From NCBI RefSeq assembly GCF_900176885.1, contig NZ_LT839648.1, positions 1,391,049-1,455,048 of the forward strand: a stretch of 64,000 bases of DNA, read 5' to 3'. The stretch's first letter is position 1. Each line of letters opens with the position of its first letter. Under the pieces are notes generated by a model that saw only the letters and a program-made list of their open reading frames with translations, searched no databases and was not told where the DNA came from. Positions 47,034 to 64,000 of this stretch are shown here, piece by piece. A program made the translations under genes and the position numbers. Source of the DNA: Oceanobacillus senegalensis (GTDB lineage: Bacteria > Bacillota > Bacilli > Bacillales > Amphibacillaceae).

Positions 47034-47050
47034 TTTTTAAAATAATGACC

Positions 47051-49048
47051 TTATTTAACTAGGGATTCTACATTTTTAACTACATTTTCAACGGTGAATC
47101 CGTATTCCGCAATAACTTTGTCACCATTGGCAGAAGCACCAAATGTGTCAATTGCCATCACCATTCCATTGTCTCCCGTATATTTATGCCATCCTAAAGA
47201 AGTGCCCATTTCAATGGCAACACGGTTCTTCACTTGTGGTGGAATAACTTCATTTTTGTATGCTTCATCTTGTTTGTTGAAGCGATCCCATGAAGGCATG
47301 CTTACAACACTAGCGTCGATACCTTTTTCTTTAAGAGCTTTTTGAGCATCAACTGCAAGCGAAACCTCTGAACCAGTTGCAAGAAGAAGTGCGTCAGGTG
47401 TTTCTTTATCTGCTTTACTTACAACATAAGCACCTTTCTTCACACCTTCATATGCATTTTCTTTTGTACCTTCTAATGTAGGTAGATTTTGTCTTGTTAA
47501 CACAAGAGCTGTTGGTGTATCTTGAGATTCGATTGCTAATCTCCAAGCTGCTTGTGTTTCATTTCCATCAGCTGGGCGAACAACAGATAGTCCTGGCATT
47601 GCTCGTAATGAAGCTAATTGTTCGATCGGTTCGTGTGTTGGACCGTCTTCCCCAACTGCAATGGAGTCATGTGTGAATACATAGGTCACAGGCATATTCA
47701 TGATAGATGCTAGACGGATAGAAGGTCTTAAGTAGTCACTGAAAACAAAGAATGTTCCACCGAATACTTTTAATCCACCATGTAATGCCATACCATTTAA
47801 TGCTGCACCCATGGCATGTTCACGTACACCAAACCAGATGTTTTTACCGGCGTAGTTTTCGCGAGAGAAATCTTCCTCTTCTTTCATTGTTGTTTTGTTT
47901 GAACCTGCTAGGTCCGCACTACCACCAAAGAAGTTTGGAACAGATTTCGATATAGCATTTAAAACTTCACCAGATGATGCACGAGTCGCTAGAGATGAAC
48001 CTGGCTCATATACAGGTAGATCACTTGTCCAACCTTCTGGTAATTCATCGTTCATAGCTTGCTCTAATTCTTTAGCTAGCTCTGGGTATTTTTCTTTATA
48101 TGTGCTGAATAAATCATTCCATGCAGCTTCTTTTTCTTGACCGTTTTTCACAATTTTCTCGTTGAAATCAGCATAAACTTCTTCTGGTACATGGAAATCA
48201 TCATGAGACCATTCGTAAAATTCTTTTGTTAGTACTACTTCATCGCCTCCAAGTGGAGCACCATGAGACGCTGCAGAAGCTGATTTATTTGGAGAACCAT
48301 AGCCAATAACCGTACGGATTTCAATTAGTGTTGGCTGGTCTGTGTTTTCTTGTGCAGCTTTAATTGCATTTCTAATTTCATCAACATTATTTCCATCCTC
48401 TACACGAAGTACTTGCCAGCCATATGCTTTAAAGCGTTCTTCTGTGTTATCAGAGAATGATTTATGCAAGTCACCATCTAGTGAAATGTCATTAGAATCA
48501 TAAAGCGCGATTAATTTACCTAATTTTAAATGTCCTGCTAATGATGCAGCTTCATGAGAAATACCTTCCATTAAATCTCCATCACTAACTAGAGCATACG
48601 TATAATGATCTACAACAGAAATATCATCTTTATTAAATTTAGCAGCTAAATGAGCTTCAGCCATTGCCATACCAACAGACATAGCAATACCTTGTCCTAA
48701 TGGCCCAGTAGTTGCTTCGACACCATCTGTATGATGTACTTCTGGGTGTCCCGGAGTTTTAGATCCCCATTGACGGAATTCCTTAATATCATCCATTGTT
48801 ACATTATAACCAGATAAATGAAGTAAGCTATATAGAAGCATAGAACCATGGCCTGCAGATAGAACGAAACGGTCACGGTTAAACCATTTTGAATGCTTAG
48901 GATTATGATTCATAAAATCTGTCCATAATGTATAAGCCATAGGTGCTGCCCCCATAGGTAAACCAGGGTGCCCTGAATTAGCTTTTTCAATTGCATCGAT
49001 AGATAATGTACGAATTGTATTGATGGATAAGTTTTCAATATTTGACAT
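47051..49048 (-). CDS. tkt: Transketolase
   Basis: The 665-residue thiamine-diphosphate enzyme of the pentose phosphate pathway. Seen are [34 protein letters not shown], the ThDP motif GDGDLMEG-like [15 protein letters not shown], and RVEDGNN; the pyrimidine domain has [16 protein letters not shown] and [20 protein letters not shown]. The ATG at 49048 lies 8 bases after AAGGAG; the longer frame is not supported. Confidence 0.97.
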
Positions 49049-49174
49049 AATGATTGCTCCTTCCACTTGTGGTTTATGTACCCTTCCCTATTCTATACGG
49101 AAATGGCCGAAGTCACAAGTATTATTTGTTTGTTTCCCCAACTAATTAATCTTTCTTTATTTTCAGATAAATAC

Positions 49175-49408
49175 TCAATGTTTTTTATTTCGGTCTTGCA
49201 TATCACGAACTTTCTTCGGTGTCACATCATTCCCCCTAGGGTCAATGACAGTCATCGTTTTCATATGATTTTTAAAAGAGCTTCGAACATTTTTCAAATA
49301 TTCTTCTCTTAGTTTTTTTTGCTCTTTCTTTTCTTTATCTGATAGCCCTTCACTTTTGGACTTTCTTGCTAGCTCATTGATACGGTTTAGTTTCTCTTTG
49401 GAAAGCAT
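49175..49408 (-). CDS. ynzC: YnzC family protein (UPF0291/DUF896)
   Basis: The 77-residue helical protein matches YnzC: KLNRINELARKSKSEGLSDKE, LREEYLKNVR and the TVIDPRGNDVTP block. YnzC belongs to the SOS-linked yneA-yneB-ynzC operon in B. subtilis. The ATG follows AAAGGAA; the frame is open upstream for 68 more codons but without a good start. Confidence 0.92.
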   Translation of the reverse strand: MLSKEKLNRINELARKSKSEGLSDKEKKEQKKLREEYLKNVRSSFKNHMKTMTVIDPRGNDVTPKKVRDMQDRNKKH

Positions 49409-49756
49409 TCTATATTCCTTTCTATTTTGAAAATAATAGTCGTATTGTGCACATAAAATGTATTTTGTGCATGAAACGGAAATTTCAATCGTACATAATA
49501 CCGCTACGGAAATAAATGTTCTATATTGATTGTTAATTCTTGTTGTGGGCAGTTTACTTCTTGAAAATAAAGTGACAAGACGTCGCATTTTTGTCGGCCT
49601 TTCATCCCCCACTGAAACGAAGGAACAAAGGGTATGCTATAGTAGAAATCAACGCACCTATTACAACACTAAAAAGAAAAAACAATCAAAACACAAAAAA
49701 AGCAAGAACAACGATCACTGTTCCTGCCTAAATATTACTATTCCACTCACAGATAT
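49409..49756. other. Gap between yneB and ynzC
   Basis: No gene seen. CCTTTCATCCCCCACTGAAACGAAGG at about 49600-49625 matches the start block of repeat family R, so a fragment of that repeat is likely. A weak GCAAGAACA/TGTTCCTGC hairpin lies at 49706-49730 after yneB. Confidence 0.45.
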
Positions 49757-50407
<651 letters not shown>

Positions 50408-50410
50408 TTA

Positions 50411-50506
50411 TCATGCACTAAGTATCATAGATACATATAATAACACCAATGTTAATCCAAAAGAAACAATATAAAATAAGTCCGTTTTCGTAATATTTCC
50501 AAACAT
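50411..50506 (-). CDS. 31-residue SOS-controlled membrane peptide in the yneA position
   Basis: A strong AAGGGGGA site lies 7-8 bases before ATG. The peptide is a short polar start (MFGNITKTD) followed by a single hydrophobic helix (LFYIVSFGLTLVLLYVSMIL) and Ser-Ala. It is the first gene after three LexA boxes and stops 15 bases before yneB. In B. subtilis this place is taken by yneA, a division suppressor with a membrane helix and LysM domain. Here the LysM part is absent. I infer an SOS-induced division inhibitor-like peptide; untested. Confidence 0.65.
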   Translation of the reverse strand: MFGNITKTDLFYIVSFGLTLVLLYVSMILSA

Positions 50507-50531
50507 ATAAAGTCCCCCTTTTAATAAAAAC

Positions 50532-50545
50532 AGAACCCCTGTTCG
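50532..50545. promoter_or_regulatory. LexA box 1 in the lexA-yneB divergent region
   Basis: AGAACCCCTGTTCG (reverse CGAACAGGGGTTCT) has perfect GAAC and GTTC half sites. It is 26 bases from the 31-residue ORF start and probably overlaps its promoter. Confidence 0.8.
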
Positions 50546-50568
50546 ATTCATTTATTTTAGTATAAACA

Positions 50569-50582
50569 CGAACATATGGTCT
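50569..50582. promoter_or_regulatory. LexA box 2 in the lexA-yneB divergent region
   Basis: CGAACATATGGTCT differs from the ideal CGAACATATGTTCG at two positions. It sits midway between the divergent genes. Confidence 0.7.
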
Positions 50583-50596
50583 TGTCAACCGTTTTT

Positions 50597-50610
50597 CGAA
50601 CGAATGTTTG
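50597..50610. promoter_or_regulatory. LexA box 3 in the lexA-yneB divergent region
   Basis: CGAACGAATGTTTG matches CGAACRNRYGTTYC at 13 of 14 positions. At 63 bases from the lexA start it is placed for autoregulation. Confidence 0.8.
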
Positions 50611-50672
50611 CGTCTACTTGTAGAAAATGGTAAACTAGCATTAATTAATCGTATGCGTGAGGTGTGTAGTAG

Positions 50673-51296
50673 ATGACAAAACTTTCAAATAGGCAACAAA
50701 TGATTCTTGATTTTATAAAAGACGAAGTAAATCAAAAGGGATATCCCCCATCCGTAAGGGAAATTGCGGTTGCAGTGGGATTAGCTTCTAGCTCCACTGT
50801 TCATGGTCATCTTGAAAGATTAGAAAGTAAAGGATACATAAGAAGGGACCCTACCAAACCAAGGGCGATTGAAGTACTAGATTCAGACGAAAACAATAAT
50901 ATTCCAAAAGAGGAAGCTCGTTATGCCCCTGTTATCGGAAAAGTAACCGCAGGACTGCCGATTACAGCGGTTGAAAATATCGAAGAATTCATCCCATTAC
51001 CTAGCTCCACTGCTAGTCCGGATGATAATTTATTTGTATTAGTCATTGACGGAGAAAGTATGATAGAGGCTGGTATTCTAGATGGAGACATGGTTATTGT
51101 TAAACAGCAAAACACAGCCCTTAATGGGGAAATTGTCGTAGCCATGACAGAGGAAAACGAAGCAACAGTAAAACGTTTCTTTAAAGAGAAAGATCATATT
51201 CGCTTGCAGCCTGAGAACTCTACGATGGAGCCTTTAATTTATCAGAATGTAACGATATTAGGAAAGGTTATTGGATTGTATCGGAATATTCATTAA
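50673..51296 (+). CDS. lexA: SOS repressor LexA
   Basis: The 207-residue repressor has an N-terminal winged helix ([21 protein letters not shown]), the self-cleavage bond Ala93-Gly94 (KVTAGLP), and the catalytic pair Ser129 (DGESM) and Lys167 (EATVKRF). It controls itself and the divergent SOS operon through the adjacent boxes, and probably parE and yolD in this window. ATG follows GAGGTGTG. Confidence 0.97.
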
Positions 51297-51341
51297 TTAA
51301 TATGCTATTTTCATAGAAATAGTGGAGTATGGATAGAATAT

Positions 51342-51387
51342 AAAAAAAGCAGCAAGACCTAAAGAAATGGATCTTGCTGCTTTTTTC
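51342..51387 (+). terminator. Terminator after lexA
   Basis: AAAGCAGCAAGA pairs with TCTTGCTGCTTT, followed by TTTT. Confidence 0.9.
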
Positions 51388-51411
51388 TCAATGTAAACAT
51401 GTTTGCATTGA
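51388..51411. promoter_or_regulatory. 24-bp dyad centred on AAACATGTTT
   Basis: TCAATG-T-AAACATGTTT-G-CATTGA is symmetrical except at one pair. It lies between the lexA terminator and the 3' end of otnC, where no promoter is expected. It resembles an operator of LacI/GntR type. It could be left from a lost regulator gene. Confidence 0.45.
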
Positions 51412-51470
51412 CCTATTTACTAATCTACGTATATTTCTAGGACATTGGCTTTTAAAAATAATACTGGAAG

Positions 51471-52055
51471 TTAAGTTATTTTCTGCAACTCCCATGCAAT
51501 ATGTGCACTTTCTTCCAATTCTTCTAATGCAAAAAACGCTTCCATGATATCGTTTCCTGGTACAACCGGACCATGATGACTCAAAAGCCAGCCATCATTT
51601 TCCTTTACTCGTTTTTCAAATTCGTTAAACAATTCTTGACTTCCCGGTTTTTCATAAGGAATTAAGCCAACTGTTCCCAATTTCATTTTTAGATATGGAG
51701 TGTGATCCGGGATACAATCTGATTCATTTAAATCAGGCAAACAACTCCAAAGCACACTATACGTACTATGTACATGAAGAACTGCTCCTGTACTAGGTTT
51801 AGCTTGAAATACGGATAAATGTAATGGCCATTCTTTACTTGGCTTTTTTTCATTATATGGATTTCCATCCATGTCCATCACAGCAAACTCATCAGCTTTC
51901 AGTGTTCCAAAGCAGGTACCAGAAGCCGTAATATACATTTTATCTTCATGTACAAAGCTTAAGTTAGCAACACTTCCACTAGCTTTCCCACGTTGAAAAA
52001 GACTATGGGCAACCCAAATCGCATTATCCAGCTTTTTATCTAATGTTTTATCCAT
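51471..52055 (-). CDS. otnC: 3-oxo-tetronate 4-phosphate decarboxylase-like class II aldolase
   Basis: A 194-residue class II aldolase/adducin-fold protein. The zinc His are in VLHVHSTYS and WLLSHHGPVV; NLSF and SGTCFG form the phosphate-binding part. Next to otnK it is predicted to decarboxylate 3-oxo-tetronate 4-phosphate to dihydroxyacetone phosphate. L-fuculose-phosphate aldolase-type activity is the alternative. An upstream GTG (52064) is possible, but the ATG has better spacing from GAGAG. Last gene of the nine-gene operon. Confidence 0.85.
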   Translation of the reverse strand: MDKTLDKKLDNAIWVAHSLFQRGKASGSVANLSFVHEDKMYITASGTCFGTLKADEFAVMDMDGNPYNEKKPSKEWPLHLSVFQAKPSTGAVLHVHSTYSVLWSCLPDLNESDCIPDHTPYLKMKLGTVGLIPYEKPGSQELFNEFEKRVKENDGWLLSHHGPVVPGNDIMEAFFALEELEESAHIAWELQKIT

Positions 52056-52087
52056 ACTTACCACACTCTCTATTATTCTATTATCTA

Positions 52088-53314
52088 TTATATGAAGGAT
52101 AAGGCACGAGTGAAAAAATCAGGTTTTCCAAAGTTACCACTTTTCAATACCATTCGAATTCGATGATCCAGTGTAGGTATCATGATTGGCACTCCAGGTG
52201 CGATGCTCTTTCCAATATGGTATCCCGTATATCCGAGCCTTTTTGTTACAGCTCCACTCGTTTCTCCACCCGCAACAATAATCCGATGAAACCCTGATTC
52301 TACCGCAAGTTCGGCTAAATCTGCGGTTGCCTTTTCTAATTTTTCCGCAACTTCTTCTTTCCCTTGTTCCTGGATTCGTTTCACATTTTCAGGGGTGTCA
52401 CTGCTATATACTAAGACGGATTCTTCCTTATTTTGAGAAATGACATTCCATATTCTCTCTACCGACTCCTCTCCAGTTAGCAATTTCATTGGATTCATAA
52501 AATAGGTTTTTCCTCCAGATTTTTGATATTCAGTAATCTGGTTTCGCGTCATTTCGCTGCAACTTCCAGCTAATATTAATGCTGGTGAATCAGAACGGTC
52601 AAATGGATGTGCTGCTATATTTTCTTTATACATTTTGGCCAATGGATATGCTAAACCACTGCCACCAGTAATAAGTTTTAGATTTCCAAATACCTCTACC
52701 AGTTTTTCCGCATCTTCCTCTTTCTCATAGTCTGGTACGATATAAAATTTGTAATCCTTATCATTTGATGTTTCTAATTCATCCACTTTATCCTTGGAAA
52801 GGGAGTCTGATAGTTTCACACTAGGAAACTTACTTTGCACATTCATTAATCGTACTAAATCACAATCCCACATCGGTGTAAGTGGATGATCCTTCATAGG
52901 ACTCTCATGTAATGGAACGCCATTTACATATAAACAACCGTCCTTTACGGTACGCCCATTTACCGGAAGCGCAGGACAAAGAATCGTATATGGAACATCT
53001 AGCTCTTCCATTACCGCATCACAAATCGGCCCAATATTACCTTCAGGTGTTGAATCAAAAGTAGAACAGTATTTCACATAAAACTGTTGTGCACCCTTCT
53101 CTTTTAACCAGCTTATCGCCTCTAAGGAATCTTTAACCGCTTCCTTTGTATCTTGAGTACGGGTTTTTAAGGCAATGACACATACCTCTGCTTGGGGAAT
53201 TTCATCCGAATCTGGAACGCCATTATATAAAATGGTACTTAGTCCACCTTTTACAAAAAAGGAAGCAAGGTCACTGCCACCGGTAAAATCATCTGCAATG
53301 CAACCAAAGCGCAT
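52088..53314 (-). CDS. otnK: 3-oxo-tetronate kinase-like (DUF1537 family)
   Basis: A 408-residue four-carbon acid sugar kinase with the N-domain FGCIADDFTGGSDLA and CPALPVNGRTVKDGCLYVNG blocks, and the C-terminal IIVAGGETSGAV nucleotide-binding part. It phosphorylates a tetronate before decarboxylation by OtnC. The ATG at 53314 follows AAGGGGTG; a GTG 9 bases upstream is less well placed. It follows the dehydrogenase gene by 12 bases. Confidence 0.9.
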   Translation of the reverse strand: MRFGCIADDFTGGSDLASFFVKGGLSTILYNGVPDSDEIPQAEVCVIALKTRTQDTKEAVKDSLEAISWLKEKGAQQFYVKYCSTFDSTPEGNIGPICDAVMEELDVPYTILCPALPVNGRTVKDGCLYVNGVPLHESPMKDHPLTPMWDCDLVRLMNVQSKFPSVKLSDSLSKDKVDELETSNDKDYKFYIVPDYEKEEDAEKLVEVFGNLKLITGGSGLAYPLAKMYKENIAAHPFDRSDSPALILAGSCSEMTRNQITEYQKSGGKTYFMNPMKLLTGEESVERIWNVISQNKEESVLVYSSDTPENVKRIQEQGKEEVAEKLEKATADLAELAVESGFHRIIVAGGETSGAVTKRLGYTGYHIGKSIAPGVPIMIPTLDHRIRMVLKSGNFGKPDFFTRALSFI

Positions 53315-53326
53315 TAGATTCACCCC

Positions 53327-54247
53327 TTATTTTTCAACTAATTCTTCCACGTCGTTTTTACGAACTTTGACACCTAGCAAATCTTCATAGAAACGAATCA
53401 TGGCATGTTTGTAATAATCTCCTTGACCGGCATGTAATGCTAGTTGATAGGTTTGCATAGTTCCGCTTAATGTAGGTAGAGGAATTTCATATTTTACTAA
53501 TACTTCTGCCATACTCTCCATATCCTTATATGCTCTCTCAAGTGAAAATCCATGTTCGAAATTCCCTTCTAAAACCTTTGGAACCAATGTTTTTGATGCA
53601 AAACTTGACCCAGTAGCGGTCATTAATACGTCCCCAAGCTTTTCGGGATCTAAACCAAGTTTAACACCAACAGGCATTAACTCACTAAAGCTTGCAACAC
53701 AAATATTTAACGCACAGTTATTAATCATCTTTGTAAGCTGTCCAGATCCGTTCTCACCCATATAAAGTACCTGTTCACCCATTCTATCTAGCATAGGTTT
53801 TATTGTATTGAATACTTCCTCATTTCCACCACACATGATACTAAGGGTTCCAGCCATGCTTTTCTTCTGTTGACCGGATATAGGACAATCCAAAAATTCA
53901 ATTCCTTTGGATTTACAGGTTTCTGCGATTTCTGTTGCCCCAATATAACTGATAGTACTAAAGTCAACAATCGTTTGACCTGGTTCCAGATTCTTTAAAA
54001 GTCCGTTCTCTCCTAAAATAACTTCTTTTACAATCTCTAAGTTTGGTAAACAAAGGAAGATATAATCACTATCTACTGTATCTATAATATTCGTAGTTGT
54101 TTGAATCCCTTTTTCCTCAAACTGCTTCAGTGCTTCTGGATTGGCATCACATACAAGATATCGAAATTCTCCTTCTTGTTCCCCTTTTGCAAGATTTAAT
54201 GCCATCCCTGTTCCCATTACGCCTAAACCGATAAAACTTACTTTCAT
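53327..54247 (-). CDS. Beta-hydroxyacid dehydrogenase (L-threonate/LtnD-like)
   Basis: A 306-residue NAD(P)-dependent enzyme of the 3-hydroxyisobutyrate dehydrogenase family: GLGVMGTGMALNL, FLDCPISGQQKKSMAGTLSIM (substrate) and Lys in GQLTKMINN. In otn clusters such enzymes oxidise L-threonate or D-erythronate. The exact substrate is inferred from context. The ATG at 54247 has AAAAGGAG upstream; the longer open frame lacks this. Confidence 0.85.
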   Translation of the reverse strand: MKVSFIGLGVMGTGMALNLAKGEQEGEFRYLVCDANPEALKQFEEKGIQTTTNIIDTVDSDYIFLCLPNLEIVKEVILGENGLLKNLEPGQTIVDFSTISYIGATEIAETCKSKGIEFLDCPISGQQKKSMAGTLSIMCGGNEEVFNTIKPMLDRMGEQVLYMGENGSGQLTKMINNCALNICVASFSELMPVGVKLGLDPEKLGDVLMTATGSSFASKTLVPKVLEGNFEHGFSLERAYKDMESMAEVLVKYEIPLPTLSGTMQTYQLALHAGQGDYYKHAMIRFYEDLLGVKVRKNDVEELVEK

Positions 54248-54348
54248 AAAAATCTCTCCTTTTCGTTTTTGAATGGTTTCAAGAGTTAGAAATACGCAAA
54301 AATAGTATCTTAACTCTTGGATGCTCCTTGTTATCAACCTTATTTATT

Positions 54349-55002
54349 TTAGCTTACTACCACACTAGTGATTGCCTTCACCGCTTCTTTAGGACTAGTC
54401 AAAACGGGTAGTCCTAAGGTACGGACCTCCTCTTCCGCAGCTGCCTGTGTTATCTGTGCAAGAATGATTACTTCGCACCCTCTTTTTTTCAATTCCGCTG
54501 CAGCAAGATAATTAAGGCGATGATGTTCTACCGTATTACCTGCTTTCAATTCAGTCATCGCCTCTGTCGTAATTTCTGTATCTATTTCCACTTCTTTCTC
54601 AAATTCCCCAGCAATAGCTTCTAACTGAGATTTGGTTAATGGTCCTGATGGTGCATTGGTTGCAACAACGCCGATTTTAGTATAATTATTAACTACCTTT
54701 TCTAACATCGGACGATCAACCGCCATGATCGGTACGGATATAAATGGCTTTACAGATTCTACGATAGGTGTTAGCACCGTACATGCGACAATAATCGCAT
54801 CAACACCTGCGTCCTGTGCTTTAATGGCAATATGGACAAAATCTTGATGGACTTTATCGTCAATACCTTTTATTTGATTGGTATAATACTGAATATTCTC
54901 ATCAACAAAATTTAAGACTGTTGCCTCTGGAGCTAGATTTTTGAATGCTGCATTTAAAGGCGCTACAGCATTACACGTTGCATGAATAATACCTATTTTC
55001 AT
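54349..55002 (-). CDS. Asp/Glu/hydantoin racemase family protein
   Basis: A 217-residue two-domain protein: the first active-site Cys is in IIVACTVLTPIV. The region that holds the second Cys in classical racemases (GCxH) reads VIILAQITQA, so a two-base mechanism like glutamate racemase is doubtful. A hydantoin racemase, maleate-isomerase-like or decyclising role is possible. The ATG at 55002 follows AAGGAG by 8 bases. It sits 12 bases after the ECF ATPase gene. Confidence 0.8.
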   Translation of the reverse strand: MKIGIIHATCNAVAPLNAAFKNLAPEATVLNFVDENIQYYTNQIKGIDDKVHQDFVHIAIKAQDAGVDAIIVACTVLTPIVESVKPFISVPIMAVDRPMLEKVVNNYTKIGVVATNAPSGPLTKSQLEAIAGEFEKEVEIDTEITTEAMTELKAGNTVEHHRLNYLAAAELKKRGCEVIILAQITQAAAEEEVRTLGLPVLTSPKEAVKAITSVVVS

Positions 55003-55016
55003 CACGATTCTCCTTT

Positions 55017-55886
55017 TTAGAGTATTTCGCTAACCTGTTTATAGGACTCATTATTATCATTTTTCCTTTGGCCTTTTTTAGCTTGTTGTTTTTTTAGACT
55101 TTCAATCATCTCATCAATATCTAATATCTTTCCATTAAAATTCAATGTATTACTCAAACGGCTGATGTGTGGTTGTTTTAACATCGCTTCCTCTAAAATG
55201 TCTAAATTCCAGAAAATTCCCCGCTTATTTTCATCTGAAACTACTTTTTTATTTGCCATCACGATGACACGCTCAAAATTCGTAACCACAAATTCCATAT
55301 CATGTGTGATGGTTATGATGGTTTTGCCTTCTTTTACCAATGCGTTAATAATGGAACCTAATTTTTTAATGGCTATAGAGTCCTGACCAGCTGTTGGCTC
55401 ATCCAAAATAATTGTCCCTGTATCCATCGCGATTACTGAAGCAATGGAAACCATTTTTTTCATGGAATAAGGCAAATTGTACGGGTGTATATCTAAAAAT
55501 GACTCGAGCCCCGTTAATTCTGCGGCCTTTTTCACGTTTTCATTCATCTTCTCTTCTGAAAACCCAAGATTTTTCGGACCAAACATGATTTCGCTTTTTA
55601 CTGTCTCATGAAAAATTTGATCATCAGGATTTTGAAAGACATAGCCTACTTTTCTAGATATTTGAGCCGTTGTATAGTCTTTGGTATTTAAACCTTCGAT
55701 GATGACATCCCCTTTTGTTGGCCTCAATAATCCATTCATCATTTTCACTGTCGTTGTTTTTCCTGCTCCATTTTGCCCAATGATGGCTACCGATTCTCCC
55801 TTTTCGAAGGACATGTTGACATTTTCAACAGCTGTAAAACCATTTGGATAAGAAAAAGTAACATCGTTTAACGTTAAAAAACTCAT
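55017..55886 (-). CDS. ecfA2: ECF transporter ATPase, second subunit
   Basis: A 289-residue ABC ATPase with Walker A GQNGAGKTTT, Q-loop FQNPDDQIF, Walker B IILDEPTAG and switch His in TITHD. The signature motif reads LPYSMKKM instead of LSGGQ, so one of the two composite ATP sites may be weak, which is known in asymmetric ABC pairs. The ATG overlaps the end of the upstream ATPase gene (TGAaaacATG spacing), after AAAGGGGTG. Confidence 0.92.
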   Translation of the reverse strand: MSFLTLNDVTFSYPNGFTAVENVNMSFEKGESVAIIGQNGAGKTTTVKMMNGLLRPTKGDVIIEGLNTKDYTTAQISRKVGYVFQNPDDQIFHETVKSEIMFGPKNLGFSEEKMNENVKKAAELTGLESFLDIHPYNLPYSMKKMVSIASVIAMDTGTIILDEPTAGQDSIAIKKLGSIINALVKEGKTIITITHDMEFVVTNFERVIVMANKKVVSDENKRGIFWNLDILEEAMLKQPHISRLSNTLNFNGKILDIDEMIESLKKQQAKKGQRKNDNNESYKQVSEIL

Positions 55887-56746
55887 GTTTTCACCCCTTT
55901 TAATGCCAGCCATTGCTTCATAACTTTAATAGACTCATCTTCTGTAACTGGAATTTTATCCGTCTTCATATTGTGTTTTCGCATTTGTAAATTTAATTGG
56001 GTATACTGTGTTAACTCCACACCATAGTTTTGTGTATCCTCATTAGCTAGCAATTCCTCTGCTTTTCCTTGTTTCTTAATTTGTCCATCCTGAAGGACAA
56101 CAATATAGTCTGCATATTCGGCAATTAACTCTATTTTATGCTCTACTAATATAATGGTTTTGCCTTTTTGTTTCATAATATCTATGGCTTTAAATATTTC
56201 CTCTGTACCCTGTGGATCTAATTGTGATGTTGGTTCATCAATAACGAGTATATCTGGCTCCATAACAATGATTGATGCTAAAGCCACTCTTTGCTTTTGA
56301 CCACCAGAGAGCTGATTCGGATTTTTGTCTTGTAAATACTCAATCCCTAACAACTTAATAATGTCTTGAACTCGCTTTTCTATCACACTGACCTCAATCC
56401 CTAAATTCTCGAGTCCAAAAGCAATCTCATCAAAAACCGTTTCTTTTACCCCACTGATTTGAGTAAAAGGATTTTGGAAGACAAATCCCACTTTTTGTGA
56501 AATTTCACTTGTATCCCAATTACGAATATCAATTCCATCTATCAGCACATCACCATGAAGATCACCCTTATAAAAGTGAGGGATAAATCCTCTAATAACA
56601 TTACAAAGTGTGGTCTTACCTCCACCATTGACACCAACTAAGGCATATAGCTTACCTTTCTCGATATCAAGGTTAATATCTCGCAAAACCTCATCATTCC
56701 CAGTAGGGTACTTGTATGATAGATTTCTTATCTTTACTTCACTCAT
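55883..56746 (-). CDS. ecfA1: ECF transporter ATPase, first subunit
   Basis: A 287-residue ABC ATPase with canonical motifs: GVNGGGKTTLCN, FQNPFTQI, LSGGQKQRVALA, VIDEPTSQLDP and VEHK. The C-terminal 60 residues are an extension after the ATPase core. It pairs with the next ATPase and EcfT. It overlaps the ecfT stop by 4 bases. Confidence 0.94.
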   Translation of the reverse strand: MSEVKIRNLSYKYPTGNDEVLRDINLDIEKGKLYALVGVNGGGKTTLCNVIRGFIPHFYKGDLHGDVLIDGIDIRNWDTSEISQKVGFVFQNPFTQISGVKETVFDEIAFGLENLGIEVSVIEKRVQDIIKLLGIEYLQDKNPNQLSGGQKQRVALASIIVMEPDILVIDEPTSQLDPQGTEEIFKAIDIMKQKGKTIILVEHKIELIAEYADYIVVLQDGQIKKQGKAEELLANEDTQNYGVELTQYTQLNLQMRKHNMKTDKIPVTEDESIKVMKQWLALKGVKT

Positions 56747-57492
56747 AGGAAAAACCTCCAGATCAAGATGGATACGAATAGAATAATTACTACGCCTTTA
56801 ATAAGGCTATCATTCTTTGTCTTTTCCAATTGATGTAGACTTGTCTTTTTAGTCCGGGCTGTAAAAGCTCTTGATTCTAGGGTAATTGCTTTCTCCTCAG
56901 TACTGGAAAAGGATGATAAAATCAAAGGAGTTAATGCTGGTATAAAGGCTTTCATACGTACGCTTAGCTTCCCATCCGTTTCCACGCCACGGGATCTTTG
57001 TGCATCCATTATTCTTATCATATCCTGTCTCATCTCAGGAATAATGTTAAATGCTGCGATTAGCGTATACGTAGCTTTAGGAGAGATTCCCGCTATTTCT
57101 AACGAACGAGCCAAATCCGTTATTTTAGTAATCTGGAAAAATAAAATTAGTGCTGATCCTATCGCCACAATTTTGGAGGTTAATTGTAAACTGAAAGTAA
57201 TCCCTTCTTGTTTAATGGAGAATGAACCCCATGACCACAGTACGGTTTCTCCCGGATAGAAGAATGATTGTAAAAGAAAAATCATTATAACTATAGGAAG
57301 AAATCCCTTAAGGACGAAGTTTAAGAATAATTTTGACTTACCAACTAACATAGCAATGATCAAGCAAACAATCGGGATCATATATGCATATAGAAATCCT
57401 GGTAATAGAAACGATAGGATGCACAAAAACAAGGTGCAATAAAGTTTCGTCGTTGGATATAGGTTTAGAATATAGGATCTAAGATTTTCCAC
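56743..57492 (-). CDS. ecfT: ECF transporter transmembrane subunit EcfT
   Basis: A 249-residue membrane protein with five or so spans and the cytoplasmic coupling helices of the family, including the AxRSRG motif (DAQRSRGVET) and SRAFTARTKKTS (SRxF). It links the S component to the ATPases. The start is GTG after GGGAGG. Confidence 0.93.
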   Translation of the reverse strand: MENLRSYILNLYPTTKLYCTLFLCILSFLLPGFLYAYMIPIVCLIIAMLVGKSKLFLNFVLKGFLPIVIMIFLLQSFFYPGETVLWSWGSFSIKQEGITFSLQLTSKIVAIGSALILFFQITKITDLARSLEIAGISPKATYTLIAAFNIIPEMRQDMIRIMDAQRSRGVETDGKLSVRMKAFIPALTPLILSSFSSTEEKAITLESRAFTARTKKTSLHQLEKTKNDSLIKGVVIILFVSILIWRFFL

Positions 57493-57539
57493 TTGTTTAC
57501 CTCCCTTTCATTATTGGACTCAAGGTAAGTTGAATTCTA

Positions 57540-58139
57540 TTAACCTGCTTTTTTGTTGTTAATATATAAAGAGCCATAATTTTGTTTAGAAAGGTATTGA
57601 TCGGACATTTTTCGAACAACAAAGTAAGCAATAAACATAGAAAGTATTTTGTCAAAGCTTTCAACAAATAGTTTTTGTGTTACAACGGCTGTCCATATTT
57701 CCTGCCCTGAAGCTAATAGAAAGCCTGTGAAAGCGTCTGATCCAGTTCCGGATGCTCCTCCAAATACAATAACGGTTGTCGGTGTAGCAATTAGTATCGC
57801 AACAATTGCTACAATAAAACCAGTAATCGCGACCTTCCAAATCTTTGTTGTCATGCCCCTCTTAGCTAGAAGACCTACTACAATCCCTGAAGCCATAGAA
57901 ACCGGTGCAAACGCTAACTGTGCAGGGTCAAATACCCCAAAAATCAATTTAGAGAGACCTCCTGTTGCCGCTCCAACCCATGGACCAGCTAACATAGCGA
58001 CAATCATCGTACCAATTTGATTTAAGAAGATAGGTATCTTCAACAAATGGACCAATTCACCAGCAACTACGTTTACTGCAACACCAACAGGAATAAGCAA
58101 AATTGCCATAAGTGTAAAATCCTTTTTTATACCTTTCAT
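57540..58139 (-). CDS. ECF transporter S component (substrate-binding membrane protein)
   Basis: A 199-residue protein with about six membrane segments; LNQIGTMIVAMLAGPWVGA and GGLSKLIFGVFDP match ECF S components. It is not a match I recognise for known vitamin S components (RibU, ThiT, BioY), so the ligand is unknown; the operon suggests the amidohydrolase substrate. The start ATG overlaps the amidohydrolase stop (ATGA). Confidence 0.88.
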   Translation of the reverse strand: MKGIKKDFTLMAILLIPVGVAVNVVAGELVHLLKIPIFLNQIGTMIVAMLAGPWVGAATGGLSKLIFGVFDPAQLAFAPVSMASGIVVGLLAKRGMTTKIWKVAITGFIVAIVAILIATPTTVIVFGGASGTGSDAFTGFLLASGQEIWTAVVTQKLFVESFDKILSMFIAYFVVRKMSDQYLSKQNYGSLYINNKKAG

Positions 58140-59599
58140 ATCTTTCCCTCCTCTAAATGAAGATGAATCTGATCATACATGTTGGTAAAGTAAGGTTCAT
58201 ATTCCTTTGCCAACTGTAGACTCAATTGACTTTTTTCAAGGATAGACTCATATTTATCTTGAACAGCTTTTAAGATGGCCTCTTCATCAAAAGTGACTAT
58301 TTTTCGATCCTTAAGAACCCATTCACCCTTGACCATTACCGAATCAACGGAACTTCCATTCTCGTAATATACTAGTTGAGAGATGGTGTCTGCTTTTACA
58401 GCCAAGGAAGAGGATTGTTTGGTTAAACATACGATATCCGCTTCGAAACCTTGTTTAATTTTCCCACGCTGCTTCTCTTCACCTAACAAGTAAGCACCAC
58501 CAACTGTAGCCATTTTAAAAACATCGATTGGCTCTAGCCATTCTCGGAAATCGGAATGTTCTTGTCGGCTATGCATGACTGCTGTTCTCATTGCTTCAAA
58601 CAGGTTATGAGCAGTCCCGCAATTAGAGGCATCCGTTCCCAAAGCTACATTCATTCCTGCTTGTATATAGGATGAAATTGCCGCTTTCCCACTTCCAAGC
58701 ATCATATTACTTACCGGATTATGAATAAGAGAAACGTCATGCTTTGCAAGATCTTTCACTTCATGTTCTTCCAGCCAAATAGCATGGGCCGCGGACAATC
58801 TTCTCGAAATCAACTGCTGTTCTTGTAATCTACCTATGATCCCACCAGGAAACGTCGAATCACCTATTTTCTTTTGGATTCTTGTTTCCAAAAGATGGGT
58901 ATGAATCAATGCCCCTTCCTGATCGCTTAATTGCTTACATAACGCAAGCATTTCCTTGGAACATCTTTGTGGTGCATTTGGTCCTACTAAGATGTTGATT
59001 TTATTATTCCTTTGATGCCATTTCGTAAAAAGAGACTCATAAAACGCTTTCATTTCCTGGACTGAAATCGGAGTATTATAATCTAATTGTGTCTTTAAAT
59101 CTCCTGGTAATTCTACGGGGAGGAAGTGATGATCCGGTACATCGTGCATCATGGGAGCAAACCCGACTCTAATAGAAGAAGTTTCATATGCTTTTAGAGC
59201 GGCTTCTGATCGTTTGATATGTGGAAAATGATCAATGCAACTAGTAACACCACTTCTGATCATGTCTATTGAACCTAAAAGCACGGCATGGTAAATATCG
59301 TCATCATCTAGAGAATGTCCGTATGCCGTTGTATACAGCGACCATATTTCTAATGGTAAATGGCTGGTAGTCCCTTTTAATAGATTGGAATAGGAATGAT
59401 AATGTGCATTTGTCATTCCAGGCATGATAACCATTTCCGATCCATCAATTGTTTCCTTGGCACGAATCGGTGGTTCACTTTCTGGTGAATGTGGAATAAC
59501 TTCCATAATAATTCCATCTTCCACCAACACACTCCCTTGGATCGTGCCTAAATTATCATCCATCGTGATGATGGTGGCATTTTTAATTAGAATTGACAT
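58136..59599 (-). CDS. Amidohydrolase, S-triazine/adenosine deaminase-like (TrzN/MtaD/SsnA group)
   Basis: A 487-residue TIM-barrel metal hydrolase. Metal ligands are NAHYHSY (HxH), HTHLLET, a His in AAHAIWLEEHEV and LGTDASNCG (Asp). The group deaminates or dechlorinates heterocycles (guanine, SAH, triazines). Its substrate here is unknown; first position in an operon with a dedicated importer suggests it acts on the imported compound. ATG follows a run of G (GGGGGGGAG). Confidence 0.9.
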   Translation of the reverse strand: MSILIKNATIITMDDNLGTIQGSVLVEDGIIMEVIPHSPESEPPIRAKETIDGSEMVIMPGMTNAHYHSYSNLLKGTTSHLPLEIWSLYTTAYGHSLDDDDIYHAVLLGSIDMIRSGVTSCIDHFPHIKRSEAALKAYETSSIRVGFAPMMHDVPDHHFLPVELPGDLKTQLDYNTPISVQEMKAFYESLFTKWHQRNNKINILVGPNAPQRCSKEMLALCKQLSDQEGALIHTHLLETRIQKKIGDSTFPGGIIGRLQEQQLISRRLSAAHAIWLEEHEVKDLAKHDVSLIHNPVSNMMLGSGKAAISSYIQAGMNVALGTDASNCGTAHNLFEAMRTAVMHSRQEHSDFREWLEPIDVFKMATVGGAYLLGEEKQRGKIKQGFEADIVCLTKQSSSLAVKADTISQLVYYENGSSVDSVMVKGEWVLKDRKIVTFDEEAILKAVQDKYESILEKSQLSLQLAKEYEPYFTNMYDQIHLHLEEGKI

Positions 59600-59623
59600 A
59601 ACTCCCCCCCTTTTTCTATAAGG

Positions 59624-60163
59624 CTATTTTTTTAGATACTGTTGTTTGTGTCGCGGAATAGATAGTATGTTCACTTACTTGTAAAAGATATTGGTATGGT
59701 GCTCATGTTGATTTCCTCTCCAGGCAGTCGCTTTCCGCGGGCGCGGCTTCAGGCTCCGTAGCGGAAGACCGCACTTCGGAGTCTTCAGACACGTGCTATT
59801 ACCACAGGACAAGGAAGGCTTCGTCAGCGTTACACCTTCGTGAGAAAAAGTGTTTTTCTTTTTCAAGGAGTCGACTGGCCTCCCTCCATCAATCAGCTTA
59901 ATAGTGGAAACATGTACTTTATTCAACTAATTTATATTGATCAAATGCTAGAAAGCTCAAGGCCAGCGAAGGAAATACACGAAGACTCCAGTGGGACGAG
60001 AGGCCTAGGTGAGACACCGTAGTGCGTTAGCACGAAGGTGGCTCATCAGCCGCCCACGGAAAGCGTAGTGTAATTCCGTAGCGGTATTTACGCACTAATT
60101 TTAGCACTCAACTGCATAGCAAATTAGCAAGAATATATACGAAAACAGCTATCTAAAAAAATG
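59624..60163. repeat. ~540-bp repeat element with terminal inverted repeats
   Basis: The left end CTATTTTTTTAGATACTGTT and the reverse of the right end GCATTTTTTTAGATAGCTGT form terminal inverted repeats. Inside are two GC-rich arms in opposite orientation: CAGTCGCTTTCCGCGGGCG at about 59734 and CCGCCCACGGAAAGCG at about 60049, each with a GAAGACTCC block. I recognise this as a repeat type common in Bacillaceae. No credible protein. It separates the two catabolic modules and could form a large hairpin in RNA. Confidence 0.75.
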
Positions 60164-60165
60164 CT

Positions 60166-61137
60166 TTATTTAATTTTCGATCTTGTGTCTTCTAATGTAG
60201 CGATACGGTTGGCGAATTGTTTTGCTACGCTCTGTCCGTCCACTCCCATAAGAACGGAGCTGTTGGGTTCGGAATGACCCCATTGTCCTGTGAACTCTGC
60301 GACGGTTTGTCCAGCTGTCAATTCCCCTTTTGTCTCGATGGAAACAAAAGCTGGTTGCTCGTCAAATAGTTCTGGCCACAATGCGTATGCTACAGCGGGT
60401 ACGTCGTTGAAAAAGACACCTGTTTCTGTTGCTGAAGATTGCTGTACTTTGACGTATGCTTTACGACGGAATTCAGCAGCTTCAAGAAGAAATGCTCCTG
60501 GTCGATTACCTGCTTCACGAATGTGGTCTAGGTTCTCTTTAGAAATTCGCACTTTTGTACATACATCAAGCCCAACCTGAACAATAGGTACACCGGACTC
60601 ATACATCATTCGTGCTGCTTCCGGATCACTAGCTAAATTGAAGGATGCCACTGGGGAAAAGTTTCCGGATACACGGACAGCTCCGCCCATGACGATAATT
60701 CTTTTCACCTTCTCTGCAAGACTAGGATCGATAGAGAGGGCAAGCGCTACGTTCGTTACAGGACCTAACGCGATAATCGTTATTTCGTTTGGTGTTTCAT
60801 TACAGCGCCTTACTATTTCCAGCGCAGCACTTGTCTTCTCTTCTGATATCGTCGGGTTTGGGGCCTCGACACCTCCAAAACCATTGTTGCCGTGAATGTG
60901 CTTGGCAAAATAGGCTTGACGCACAAGAGGTTTGCTAGCTCCTCGGTAAACAGGAATGTCTGTTCTTCCGGCTAGCTCAAGTAAGGATAGTGCGTTACGC
61001 GTCGAAGTATCTACCTCGATATTCCCATACACCGTCGTTAAAGCTTCAACTTGTAACTCCGGTGATGCGATGGCAAGATAGATTGCCGCAAGATCGTCAA
61101 CACCTGGATCCGTATCAATAATAACTCGTTCTACCAT
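60166..61137 (-). CDS. Inosine-uridine-type nucleoside hydrolase
   Basis: A 323-residue hydrolase that cuts nucleosides into base and ribose. The DTDPGVDD motif (8-15) binds Ca2+ and ribose; GNNGFGG and FNLASDPEAA are further active-site pieces. Substrate preference cannot be told. ATG follows GAGGAGGATAAG. It is downstream of the BtpA-like gene and its stop abuts the repeat element. GC content is visibly higher than in core genes. Confidence 0.9.
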   Translation of the reverse strand: MVERVIIDTDPGVDDLAAIYLAIASPELQVEALTTVYGNIEVDTSTRNALSLLELAGRTDIPVYRGASKPLVRQAYFAKHIHGNNGFGGVEAPNPTISEEKTSAALEIVRRCNETPNEITIIALGPVTNVALALSIDPSLAEKVKRIIVMGGAVRVSGNFSPVASFNLASDPEAARMMYESGVPIVQVGLDVCTKVRISKENLDHIREAGNRPGAFLLEAAEFRRKAYVKVQQSSATETGVFFNDVPAVAYALWPELFDEQPAFVSIETKGELTAGQTVAEFTGQWGHSEPNSSVLMGVDGQSVAKQFANRIATLEDTRSKIK

Positions 61138-61248
61138 AATCTCTTATCCTCCTCTTCTAAGTAAGTAAAGATAGGAAGAGGGGCTAACTTCCCCCTCCAC
61201 TCCCTTCCATACTAGGAATCTATTAAAATGACCAACTTCTTCGTGCAG

Positions 61249-62073
61249 TTATGCTAGTTGAGGGTTTCTTTCTCTGTCTACACCTTCGCAAAAGCGACGC
61301 GTTTTCTCCTCATCTACTGGATTCGTCATGATATCATCAATTTTAGAACCGTAACCAAAGACTGCTCCATCTGCATGTTTGAGAAGATTCGCTGTCTCAA
61401 CTTTCATTCCACTCCCAATAATAATAGGCACATCAGGTACCGCACGCTTAACTGCTGTTAAATTCTCAATGGATGGAGGCTGAGCCGATTCTTCTCCAGC
61501 AAGAATAAGTGCGTCTGCCATCCCACGATAAGCTGCATCACGAGCCACAACATCAATAGGACGTTCTGCTAACGGTGCAGCGTGTTTTGTCTGAATGTCT
61601 GCGAAAATTTTAACCTTATTCTCTAAACCAAGGAATTTACGATATCTCGCTACTAAGTGCGCTGTACCGTTGATGAGACCCTGATCCGTCACGTACGCAT
61701 CAGTAAGAACATTAAGTCTGATAAAATCAGCTCCTACTGTTCCAGCAACTGCTAATGCAGATTTCCACGAATTTCTTAGTATATTAATCCCCATAGGAAG
61801 CTTCACTTCCCGGCGAATTTCATGAGCAATCATGGTCATCGCTGCCACTGTTTCTGGTTCCTCTGTTTCAGGATAAAACGGATAATCATTGAAATTTTCT
61901 ACCATAACTGCACTAGCTCCACCCTTTTCCAAGCTTTTCGCATCACGAATGGCGGCTTCTAAAACCTGTTCCATATTCCCATCGTACAGTGGAGAGCCTG
62001 GTAGAGGCTGTAAATGAACCATACCCAATACTGGTTTTTCAACACCGAAAGTACTCTTTAATGAATTTGTCAA
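61249..62073 (-). CDS. BtpA/SgcQ family TIM-barrel protein
   Basis: A 274-residue protein matching the BtpA family: LGMVHLQPLPGSPLYDG, GGASAVMVENFNDYPF, GINILRNSWKSALAVA, ADFIRLNVLTDA and VPIIIGSGMKVETA. Members include SgcQ of a sugar operon and a cyanobacterial photosystem I factor; a phosphosugar or nucleobase-sugar enzyme is suspected but not shown. The start is TTG after GGAGGAG. Confidence 0.88.
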   Translation of the reverse strand: MTNSLKSTFGVEKPVLGMVHLQPLPGSPLYDGNMEQVLEAAIRDAKSLEKGGASAVMVENFNDYPFYPETEEPETVAAMTMIAHEIRREVKLPMGINILRNSWKSALAVAGTVGADFIRLNVLTDAYVTDQGLINGTAHLVARYRKFLGLENKVKIFADIQTKHAAPLAERPIDVVARDAAYRGMADALILAGEESAQPPSIENLTAVKRAVPDVPIIIGSGMKVETANLLKHADGAVFGYGSKIDDIMTNPVDEEKTRRFCEGVDRERNPQLA

Positions 62074-62148: not shown

Positions 62149-62958
62149 TTATTCAATTACATCCATAGGCAGTTTCACATCCGCATCCATACTCGGCGCC
62201 CTTAGTTGTGCTGTAAGTCCGCCATCGATGGATAAGATGTGACCTGTGATATATGAAGCTTCCGGTGATGCTAAGAAGCGAACACCTTGACCAACATCTT
62301 GAGGCATTCCAAGCCTTCCCAATGGAATAAGACCGTCTGGTGAGGATTCTTCCCCGACAGTAGTTCGGTTTTCTACCCACATAGCTCCAGGCATCACAGC
62401 ATTAACTCGGATTTTCCACGGAGCCAGATCAAGTGCCATAGCTCGTGTAGCAGCCTCAATAGCACCTTTTGTCGCGTCATAAGCGACACGATTTCGGTGT
62501 GCACGTGTAGCTCCTCCAGAACTCATATTGATAATGTTTCCACCTTCACCTTGATGAACCATCGCCTTTGCCGCCATTTGGCTACAGTGGTATAGGCCAT
62601 TAAGGTGGATATTCATTAGATTTTCCCACATGGAGTAGTCTGTCTGTAGGAAATGTCTTTCCGATAGCGGGCCGTGACCTATGCCTGCATTGTTAACAAG
62701 CACATCGATACCACCCTGGAAACCGTTGGCTACCTCGAACAGATTTTTTACATCATCACTTGATGAGACATCCGTATATACAAACAGCCCATCGCCACCT
62801 GATTCGATGATTTCTTGCACACATCGCTCACCGGCTTCCGCGTCAATATCTGCGATGACTACCGACGCACCAATCTCAGCAAAAGAAAGGGCTATTCCTC
62901 GGCCAAGTCCCTTTGATCCACCGGTCACGATAACGCGTTGCTTTACCTTATTACCCAA
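62149..62958 (-). CDS. Short-chain dehydrogenase/reductase (glucose 1-dehydrogenase-like)
   Basis: A 269-residue SDR with TGGSKGLGRGIA (cofactor), NNAGIG, active-site Ser in INMSSGG and Tyr-x3-Lys in VAYDATKGA, and the ITGHILSIDGGLTAQ end. It probably oxidises a sugar or polyol; the substrate is unknown. The start is TTG after AAGGAGTG. It precedes the BtpA-like gene by 75 bases. Confidence 0.88.
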   Translation of the reverse strand: MGNKVKQRVIVTGGSKGLGRGIALSFAEIGASVVIADIDAEAGERCVQEIIESGGDGLFVYTDVSSSDDVKNLFEVANGFQGGIDVLVNNAGIGHGPLSERHFLQTDYSMWENLMNIHLNGLYHCSQMAAKAMVHQGEGGNIINMSSGGATRAHRNRVAYDATKGAIEAATRAMALDLAPWKIRVNAVMPGAMWVENRTTVGEESSPDGLIPLGRLGMPQDVGQGVRFLASPEASYITGHILSIDGGLTAQLRAPSMDADVKLPMDVIE

Positions 62959-63266: not shown

Positions 63267-64000
63267 CTACTTTGTGAAGACAGATTTCTGTTCCAATTCT
63301 ATTGTGGTATAATCCTCTAGTGTGTCAGAAAACCAACATTGTAAATCGGCTTCTCTTTTATGGAGATACATAGGCTTCCCATTAATCAATTTCATCGGTA
63401 TATCGTGGCCAGGGATTAGAATATTTTCCGGCTTTTCTTTCCACAATTTCCATAGATAATCTATGGAACCTTGGCTTTCCGATAGATTTAACGTCATGTC
63501 CGCATCGCTTGATAAAAGTTCAGCTCTATTTTTTGCTGCATCACCACAAAATATCAAATCATAATCACCATTATCTACCGTGTAGGTTAGGTGTCCTGGT
63601 GTATGGCCTTTTGTTTGATGAGCAACAATCCCAGGAACAACTTCCTCAAGATGATCAACTAATTTTGTTTGTGGGGAACGATTTAATTCCTTTACATATA
63701 GTTCAGGTACATGCCATCCTCCCGCTGGTTCATTTAATGCCCACTCCATATCCACTCGCCCTACTACAATGGTTGCGTTAGGAAACATGGTCCAATTTAC
63801 ACAATGATCCCAATGCGTATGTGTCAATAAAATCATAGTTATATCATCTGGTGACAAACCTTTGTCATGTAACTTCTCTAATAGAAGTGGACGGACACCA
63901 AAACTACCGACGTCAATAATTATATTCTCATCGTTCTGCGACAGCAGTGCCACTGTACTCCAGCCTAACCCTCCGTGAGTTGAGGACTTTCCAGGAAACC
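63267..64000 (-). CDS. Metallo-beta-lactamase-fold hydrolase, 5' end outside the window
   Basis: The frame stays open to the window edge, and the codons before the first in-window GTG encode FPGKSSTHGGLGWSTV, which is typical N-terminal sequence of the family, so the gene is partial. HTHWDH, GHTPGHL and GDAAKN are the metal-binding motifs. It resembles quorum-lactonase-like hydrolases; in this context a lactone of a sugar acid is a possible substrate, which is inference. Confidence 0.88.
   Translation of the reverse strand, partial: FPGKSSTHGGLGWSTVALLSQNDENIIIDVGSFGVRPLLLEKLHDKGLSPDDITMILLTHTHWDHCVNWTMFPNATIVVGRVDMEWALNEPAGGWHVPELYVKELNRSPQTKLVDHLEEVVPGIVAHQTKGHTPGHLTYTVDNGDYDLIFCGDAAKNRAELLSSDADMTLNLSESQGSIDYLWKLWKEKPENILIPGHDIPMKLINGKPMYLHKREADLQCWFSDTLEDYTTIELEQKSVFTK

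Follow-up and report, generated by a model that had tools for sequence, protein, structure and literature searches.

A conserved operon of Oceanobacillus senegalensis with a likely nucleoside-type input and an Otn-type output

A stretch of 64,000 nucleotides from Oceanobacillus senegalensis (contig NZ_LT839648.1, positions 1,391,049 to 1,455,048 of the forward strand; hereafter the window) carries towards its end a minus-strand block of 14 genes, which we read, with a probability of about 0.58, as a LacI-controlled operon for the uptake and breakdown of a nucleoside-like compound via an oxidised sugar, each reaction and the substrate being predicted. Genomic context supports a dedicated, conserved operon with nucleoside-type input and an output through the tetronate enzymes OtnK and OtnC. 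The observations on which this reading builds are gene content, conservation, a dedicated operator, modular swaps, the lack of an OtnI above cut-off and conserved residues. The operon is a combination of known parts in a new arrangement, and among the matches listed from open-licence PMC papers no title or abstract covers this gene combination.

The operon and its conservation

All nine minus-strand open reading frames (ORFs) that a first-pass annotation of this DNA had joined into a catabolic operon are present at 51471-59599, with listed overlaps of 4, 4 and 31 bases and remaining gaps of 3-47 bases, and the ORF list and family searches agree with the families it had named. The block is larger than those nine genes, since five upstream genes had been missed (LacI, a metallo-beta-lactamase-fold hydrolase, a short-chain dehydrogenase, BtpA and a nucleoside hydrolase), and it continues past the window end, where a LacI-family regulator lies on the same strand upstream of the hydrolase gene. 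In gene order after lacI, the features of the block are as follows.

63267..64000, minus strand: metallo-beta-lactamase-fold hydrolase (MBL), probable lactonase, running off the window with its start at window position 64028 (PF00753, 85.6 bits)
62149..62958, minus strand: short-chain dehydrogenase (SDR), candidate sugar 1-dehydrogenase (PF13561, 199 bits)
61249..62073, minus strand: BtpA/SgcQ family protein, TIM barrel (PF03437, 272 bits)
60166..61137, minus strand: nucleoside hydrolase (NH), RihC/RihA-like (PF01156, 305 bits)
59660..60120, no strand: dispersed repeat in the gap between NH and AH, not part of the pathway (56 matches in its own genome, itself included)
58136..59599, minus strand: amidohydrolase (AH) of the TRZ/ATZ deaminase type by family matches, with the HxH, His and Asp metal-ligand motifs
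57540..58139, minus strand: substrate-binding (S) component of an energy-coupling factor (ECF) importer, CD3073-like (NF045596, 129.6 bits, cut-off 180)
56743..57492, minus strand: ECF transmembrane (T) component, CbiQ-type (PF02361, 94 bits)
55883..56746, minus strand: ECF ATPase A1 (TIGR04520, 243 bits, cut-off 315)
55017..55913, minus strand: ECF ATPase A2 (TIGR04521, 233 bits, cut-off 330)
54349..55005, minus strand: Asp/Glu-racemase-fold protein (RAC), candidate 2-oxo/3-oxo acid isomerase (PF01177, 59 bits)
53327..54247, minus strand: beta-hydroxyacid dehydrogenase (HAD) of the tartronate-semialdehyde reductase/threonate dehydrogenase family (PF03446 and PF14833)
52088..53323, minus strand: OtnK, 3-oxo-tetronate kinase, DUF1537 (NF043035, 441 bits, cut-off 350)
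51471..52064, minus strand: OtnC, class II aldolase (Aldolase_II) type (PF00596; NF043034, 178 bits, cut-off 250)

The HAD ORF as listed begins with TTG; a start at the ATG of position 54247 is more likely, matches the spacing seen in the relatives and leaves about 100 bases between RAC and HAD.

The 14 genes stand in one order in all seven distinct genomes that carry a close S component, a small set of bacilli from soil and sea, namely two strains of Rossellomorea aquimaris, two of Fredinandcohnia onubensis, Fictibacillus phosphorivorans, one further strain and the window's own, with genomes reached by two loci (such as L006 and G335) counted once. Of the 397 genomes searched within the order, these seven alone have an S component with 77% identity or more, the next best reaching 53%. 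One ATPase of the L004 locus is absent from the picked ORFs and was detected by tblastn. This conservation is far from chance. A lack of conservation of the set in related genomes, one of the points on which the first-pass annotation had said that its proposal could fail, is not seen, and the idea of one conserved catabolic operon stands.

In the five relatives measured, no gap from MBL through OtnC exceeds 206 bases, except at a duplication of BtpA in F. onubensis. This species carries two BtpA copies (L003:6961-8763, L006:7200-8756), of which the first is, in strain 10J4, a shorter ORF whose match falls into two pieces. The gap between NH and AH spans 566 bases in the window, against 49-94 in the same relatives. 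A repeat of about 460 bases upstream of AH, absent from the relatives measured, lies in this gap in the window, so that transcription across it is presumed there.

Regulation

A palindromic operator, WGGAAACGTTTCCW, occurs at 22 sites over the seven whole genomes, 20 of them at this locus, and the pattern read backwards as a control gave 0 or 1 site per genome. In all seven genomes the palindrome TGGAAACGTTTCCA (or a form in which an end carries the other A/T) is found at the lacI start or shortly before it and again one to two times between lacI and the MBL gene, and no exact site was found in any of them between the upper half (LacI to A2) and the lower half (RAC to OtnC). This placement, together with the short gaps in the relatives measured, fits one operon under its own repressor. 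The window's own genome has a single operator-like palindrome outside the operon (G000:C4:2137866-2137879). A further, imperfect palindrome, TGAAAAGGTTTACA or close to it, stands upstream of the SDR gene in six of the seven genomes (L002-L006, L067) and was not found there in the window's own genome.

Proposed pathway

In the route we propose, the ECF importer (S-T-A-A) would take up a nucleoside-like compound, AH would remove the amino group from the base and NH would cleave the N-glycosidic bond, as their families and neighbourhoods suggest. The freed sugar, unphosphorylated, would be oxidised at C1 by SDR to a lactone, which MBL would open to the sugar acid. HAD would then oxidise this acid to the 2-oxo acid, RAC would shift the carbonyl to C3 in OtnI's stead, OtnK would phosphorylate the product and OtnC would decarboxylate it. 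A four-carbon acid would yield dihydroxyacetone phosphate (DHAP); a five-carbon acid (ribonate) would yield a tetrulose phosphate, which BtpA could isomerise. Acids of either length are possible: the four-carbon acid expected by the first-pass annotation may be right, and a five-carbon acid is compatible with the evidence as well. Its broader idea of a nitrogen compound that feeds Otn chemistry survives in outline and changes in that the five upstream genes which it missed speak for a nucleoside whose sugar is oxidised. Eritadenine as well as riburonosyl and erythrofuranosyl nucleosides, which we assume could be sources of a four-carbon acid, were considered, and no evidence was found for or against them.

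The lower module and its racemase-like protein

The lower four genes are a separable and portable acid module. In two further genomes (G175 and G1071), RAC, HAD, OtnK and OtnC come after genes for a TctC/TctA transporter and a regulator of the GntR type, with per-gene identities to the window of 75-80% and 69-79%, respectively, and searches with the S component and with BtpA gave no match in either genome. Concatenated, the module of G175 is 75% and that of G1071 72% identical to the window's, the operon copies being 75-81% identical. Both branch beside the window copy in a tree of the module, which is unrooted and thus does not distinguish recruitment of the module from its being a remnant. 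A second racemase-like gene (32-36% identical to RAC) lies downstream of the Tct-linked module (L114:14533-16025, L115:15030-16811) and is followed by an SDR gene in L114 or a D-2-hydroxyacid dehydrogenase gene in L115.

Within the module, OtnK exceeds its curated cut-off. Such a match is found in one of 299 Bacilli genomes, the window's own, with some match in 84 of the 299 (own included); the next two matches by score (244 bits) each have a RAC relative no more than about 7 kb away. The nearest solved relative of OtnK is 1YZY/HI1011. OtnC has the right fold, and its best equivalog is NF043034. HAD scores 215 bits against PRK11559 (tartronate semialdehyde reductase; cut-off 397) and 166 bits against ThreonDh (cut-off 350). 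Its plasmid neighbours, in one annotated record, are acid-utilisation genes with Tct transporters, and in two further, unannotated plasmid records nothing else matched the query proteins.

The nearest described system is the degradation of L-threonate and D-erythronate, which in the parts of PMC12540250 and PMC10580937 available to us is a four-step pathway (LtnD, OtnI, OtnK, OtnC) where LtnD and DenD both yield 2-oxo-tetronate. The same parts describe a shortcut without OtnI that uses an OtnC of the F_bP_aldolase type, and assign the Aldolase_II-type OtnC to the OtnI-dependent pathway. The operon shares with this system an OtnK above cut-off, an Aldolase_II-type OtnC and a dehydrogenase of the LtnD superfamily; it differs in having RAC instead of OtnI and a nucleoside-type upper half, and in that OtnC and the dehydrogenase score under their cut-offs. 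No OtnI above cut-off was found in any of 13 genomes, among which are G175, G1071 and all seven that carry the operon, and the window's own genome has no OtnI match at E 0.001; as a control for this search, matches were obtained in 8 of 14 genomes, in one of them above cut-off. Because the OtnC present is of the type that needs OtnI, yet no OtnI exceeds the cut-off, RAC is the best candidate to replace it as 2-oxo/3-oxo acid isomerase.

The neighbourhoods of RAC relatives bear on this role. Fifteen loci outside the window were read, from the best 11 genomes and four of 152 plasmid records, and an OtnK-like gene is present in six, close to RAC in G175, G1071, G985, Ilyobacter and Erwinia and about 6.6 kb away in G936. 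At the Erwinia locus the kinase scores 536 bits and the decarboxylase 274 bits, both above the NCBI cut-offs, an alpha-hydroxy acid oxidase adjoins, and the plasmid record holds no OtnI above cut-off (this search left out the chromosomes of Erwinia and Ilyobacter). The kinases adjoining RAC in Ilyobacter and G985 score 240 and 244 bits, below the OtnK cut-off. Dehydrogenases of the Iso_dh family adjoin RAC in L117, L118 and Ilyobacter and lie two genes away in G985. A link of RAC to OtnK chemistry is more likely than one to hydantoins.

The predicted model of RAC (predicted local distance difference test score, pLDDT, of 95) has the racemase fold by fold match. With the aspartate/glutamate racemase superfamily RAC shares this fold and the first Cys, and it differs in lacking the second catalytic Cys, in a conserved Gln within the motif and in sitting with sugar-acid genes. 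C75 is kept in all 26 rows of the alignment (23 distinct) and, in a wider set, in 44 of 45 rows; Gln184 is found in 25 of 26 rows (His in Erwinia) and in 45 of 45. Position 185 is Ile, Met, Tyr, Phe, Ala, Val or Gly, mostly Ile in the operon type and never Cys, and neither alignment has in this motif the second catalytic Cys of the two-Cys racemase mechanism. In the predicted model Gln184 lies two residues after its strand and just before its helix. C75 is placed alike, a hint that Gln184 occupies the place of the second Cys; an alignment to aspartate racemase 1jfl puts Ile185, not Gln184, at that position.

RAC might instead be an epimerase of a hydroxy acid, or a decarboxylase like arylmalonate decarboxylase. 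The predicted racemase fold would suit these activities, as this fold is also known to hold a decarboxylase and one-Cys members. We consider them possible yet doubtful, in that no OtnI above cut-off accompanies the OtnI-dependent type of OtnC, and RAC relatives adjoin OtnK-type kinases together with varied oxidising enzymes, which fits a shared step after oxidation.

Next to the OtnC end of the block, window 49757-51296 holds an ORF for a resolvase-like recombinase and a lexA-like ORF on the opposite strand, both named from their translations. An Rfam scan of 46000-64000 gave zero matches.

The nucleoside-type upper half

The importer is complete, with the S, T and two A components all present together and none reaching its NCBIfam cut-off. 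The first-pass annotation called the S component unknown; its best match is the CD3073 family of NCBIfam, a family with no named substrate, of which it is a relative and not a member by the NF045596 rule. No literature on CD3073 was found among open-licence PMC papers. CD3073-type S components occur in 61 further genomes besides the seven, and we read 15 of these loci (L069-L083) in stretches of 10-20 kb, scanning part of the neighbours. At ten of them a nucleoside hydrolase or a PF01048 phosphorylase-family gene is nearby (L081 via the short locus L037), in several cases with a PfkB kinase as well. An eleventh (L071:3569-9545) combines a PfkB kinase and a regulator of the GntR/UTRA type with a distant BtpA. 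L071 is a second link of BtpA to a CD3073-type importer. The clusters of L069, L070, L080, L082 and L083 share with the operon the S family and a nucleoside hydrolase, and all but L080 share a LacI-type regulator (by clustering; Pfam checked for L069). They differ in that their sugar is presumably phosphorylated, whereas the window operon has oxidative and Otn genes instead of a PfkB kinase.

The best family matches of AH are TRZ/ATZ-type hydrolases and purine or nucleoside deaminases, all below cut-off; the 5'-deoxyadenosine deaminase model ranks second (245 bits), far below its cut-off of 522. AH is most likely a deaminase and not the maker of the acid. Hydrolysis by AH had earlier been thought to yield the acid, and both the family matches and the neighbourhood make deamination more likely. 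On pSymA of Sinorhizobium meliloti, a relative of AH (30% identical) adjoins a nucleoside hydrolase and an importer of the BMP-family ABC type, and the importer thus appears to be exchanged while the hydrolase-deaminase pair persists. Two other clusters (G076 and G052) join an importer of this S type to two phosphorylase-family genes, an MtnA-family gene, an Aldolase_II gene and an AH 54 and 53% identical, respectively, to that of the window; the phosphorylases of G076 are best named, below cut-offs, as uridine phosphorylase and methylthioadenosine (MTA) phosphorylase. Such a gene set is of the kind that PMC6079011, in the part available, describes for 5-deoxyribose salvage. The imported nitrogen compound is most likely a nucleoside, because the operon holds NH, relatives of its S component lie near nucleoside hydrolases or phosphorylases, and relatives of AH lie near nucleoside hydrolases or genes of the 5'-deoxynucleoside type.

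In NH, the calcium site DxDxxxDD is present as DTDPGVDD and the last Asp is present (the Asp of ND). Asn replaces the usual His before this Asp, and Ser replaces the usual pocket Glu. In group I nucleoside hydrolases, this His activates the leaving group (PMC8910321, section 2.3.1, as far as that text was available). The nucleoside hydrolases of the ECF-linked sister clusters keep Glu in five of five cases and His in three of five (Asn in the other two). The replaced Glu is, we presume, the ligand of the 5'-OH. Ser/Thr and Asn are common to all of the best 120 of 7034 NH homologues (own included) and are therefore a clade feature that does not fix the substrate of NH. Ser-for-Glu had been a candidate sign, specific to the operon, of 5'-deoxynucleosides and was downgraded on this count.

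An import of 5'-deoxynucleosides (of the 5'-deoxyadenosine or MTA type), with the operon as an oxidative route for 5-deoxyribose in place of the DHAP shunt, has nevertheless to be weighed. It could explain the likeness of AH to those of the two clusters with phosphorylase, MtnA-family and Aldolase_II genes, and the Ser of NH where the five ECF-linked sisters and RihA have Glu. We regard it as unlikely, given that Ser/Thr at this place marks a wide clade and not the operon, and that OtnK would need to phosphorylate a deoxy acid at a secondary hydroxyl. The DHAP shunt for 5'-deoxynucleosides itself, as partly accessible in PMC6079011 and PMC12632272, shares with the operon nucleoside sugars, a class II aldolase-fold enzyme and, in two such clusters, a related AH; the 14 genes hold no MtnK, phosphorylase or MtnA-type gene, and oxidation would come first rather than phosphorylation. 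The AH of the window and those of G076 and G052 have Tyr at a position where we take MTA and S-adenosylhomocysteine deaminases to have Glu as ligand of the ribose diol, and no conclusion is drawn from this.

Joining of the two halves

No PfkB-type sugar kinase is found among the 14 genes, unlike in several sister clusters. SDR scores 222 bits against PRK07231, a glucose 1-dehydrogenase subfamily (cut-off 215), and 180 bits against the L-rhamnose 1-dehydrogenase model (cut-off 400). The best NCBIfam matches of MBL are N-acyl homoserine lactone lactonases, every one below cut-off, and its translation contains HxHxDH, GHTPGH and PGHD. With a dehydrogenase that best matches glucose 1-dehydrogenase, a lactonase-like hydrolase and no PfkB, the simplest link between the halves would be from sugar to lactone to acid.

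BtpA may supply the last step, and we know of no reaction that can be assigned to its family. Its predicted model (pLDDT 92) has fold matches that include dihydropteroate synthase, ribulose-phosphate 3-epimerase and 2-keto-3-deoxy-6-phosphogluconate aldolase, and its sequence has no PDB match at E 0.001. Invariant GSG and Gly residues lie near the last strands, and such loops bind phosphate in TIM barrels. BtpA could thus be the last isomerase, acting on a tetrulose phosphate. Its absence from G175 and G1071, where the module goes with an acid transporter, agrees with this role without proving it. Among the 396 genomes searched within the phylum, 24 (own included) have BtpA matches, and the neighbourhoods in the short loci are too varied to indicate a function.

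The halves could also be two independent units side by side, a nucleoside import and salvage unit (LacI to A2) and a tetronate breakdown unit (RAC to OtnC), with no shared intermediate. Each half does occur elsewhere on its own, the lower four genes beside a Tct transporter in G175 and G1071, which lack both S and BtpA, and importer or NH-AH sets without the lower four genes. We nonetheless find this improbable, as the halves keep together in all seven operon genomes with no exact operator between them and short gaps in the relatives measured, and as the 14 genes lack the PfkB-type sugar kinase of several sister clusters. That AH opens a hydantoin-, pterin- or lactam-like ring to a four-carbon acid, as first suggested, is very unlikely: its superfamily does include ring-opening enzymes, but its best matches, all below cut-off, are TRZ/ATZ-type hydrolases and purine or nucleoside deaminases, and AH or its relatives adjoin nucleoside hydrolases.

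Several findings weigh against the proposed oxidative route from nucleoside to Otn chemistry. The oxidation at C1 is its least certain step, being read from family resemblance where both SDR and MBL belong to broad families. MBL relatives on three proteobacterial plasmids sit with organic-acid genes and not with nucleoside genes, neighbourhoods that support acid chemistry but not nucleosides. Five of the 15 distant S loci have no recognised nucleoside hydrolase or phosphorylase among the neighbours scanned, and four of these also lack BtpA with PfkB. In the lower half, OtnC and HAD are both below NCBI cut-offs, and nine of the 15 RAC loci have no OtnK-like gene in the stretch read. OtnI-like matches below cut-off (best 71 bits, cut-off 325) occur in seven of the 13 genomes, four of them operon genomes, and G936, where a RAC occurs with an OtnK-like gene, encodes an OtnI-like protein of 321 bits on another contig. 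A five-carbon sugar would moreover require an OtnK close to tetronate kinases to accept it.

Implications

Nucleoside catabolism is usually described via ribose phosphate, as far as the available part of PMC8910321 goes. The haloarchaeal oxidative pentose pathways share with the operon the oxidative degradation of a pentose; in the part of PMC8551123 available they end at alpha-ketoglutarate. No dehydratase is among the 14 genes, whereas those pathways run through dehydratases. In its most specific form our proposal is a kinase-free oxidative route for nucleoside sugars, in which a pentose would become an acid, a one-Cys RAC would move the carbonyl from C2 to C3, OtnK and OtnC homologues would yield a tetrulose phosphate for BtpA to isomerise, and the CD3073-type ECF system would be the nucleoside importer; taken as a whole, this version is speculative and rather improbable. 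If true, it would give testable functions to three poorly understood families, namely CD3073-type S components (nucleoside import), a one-Cys branch of the racemases (replacement of OtnI) and BtpA, and would add an oxidative branch to nucleoside catabolism.

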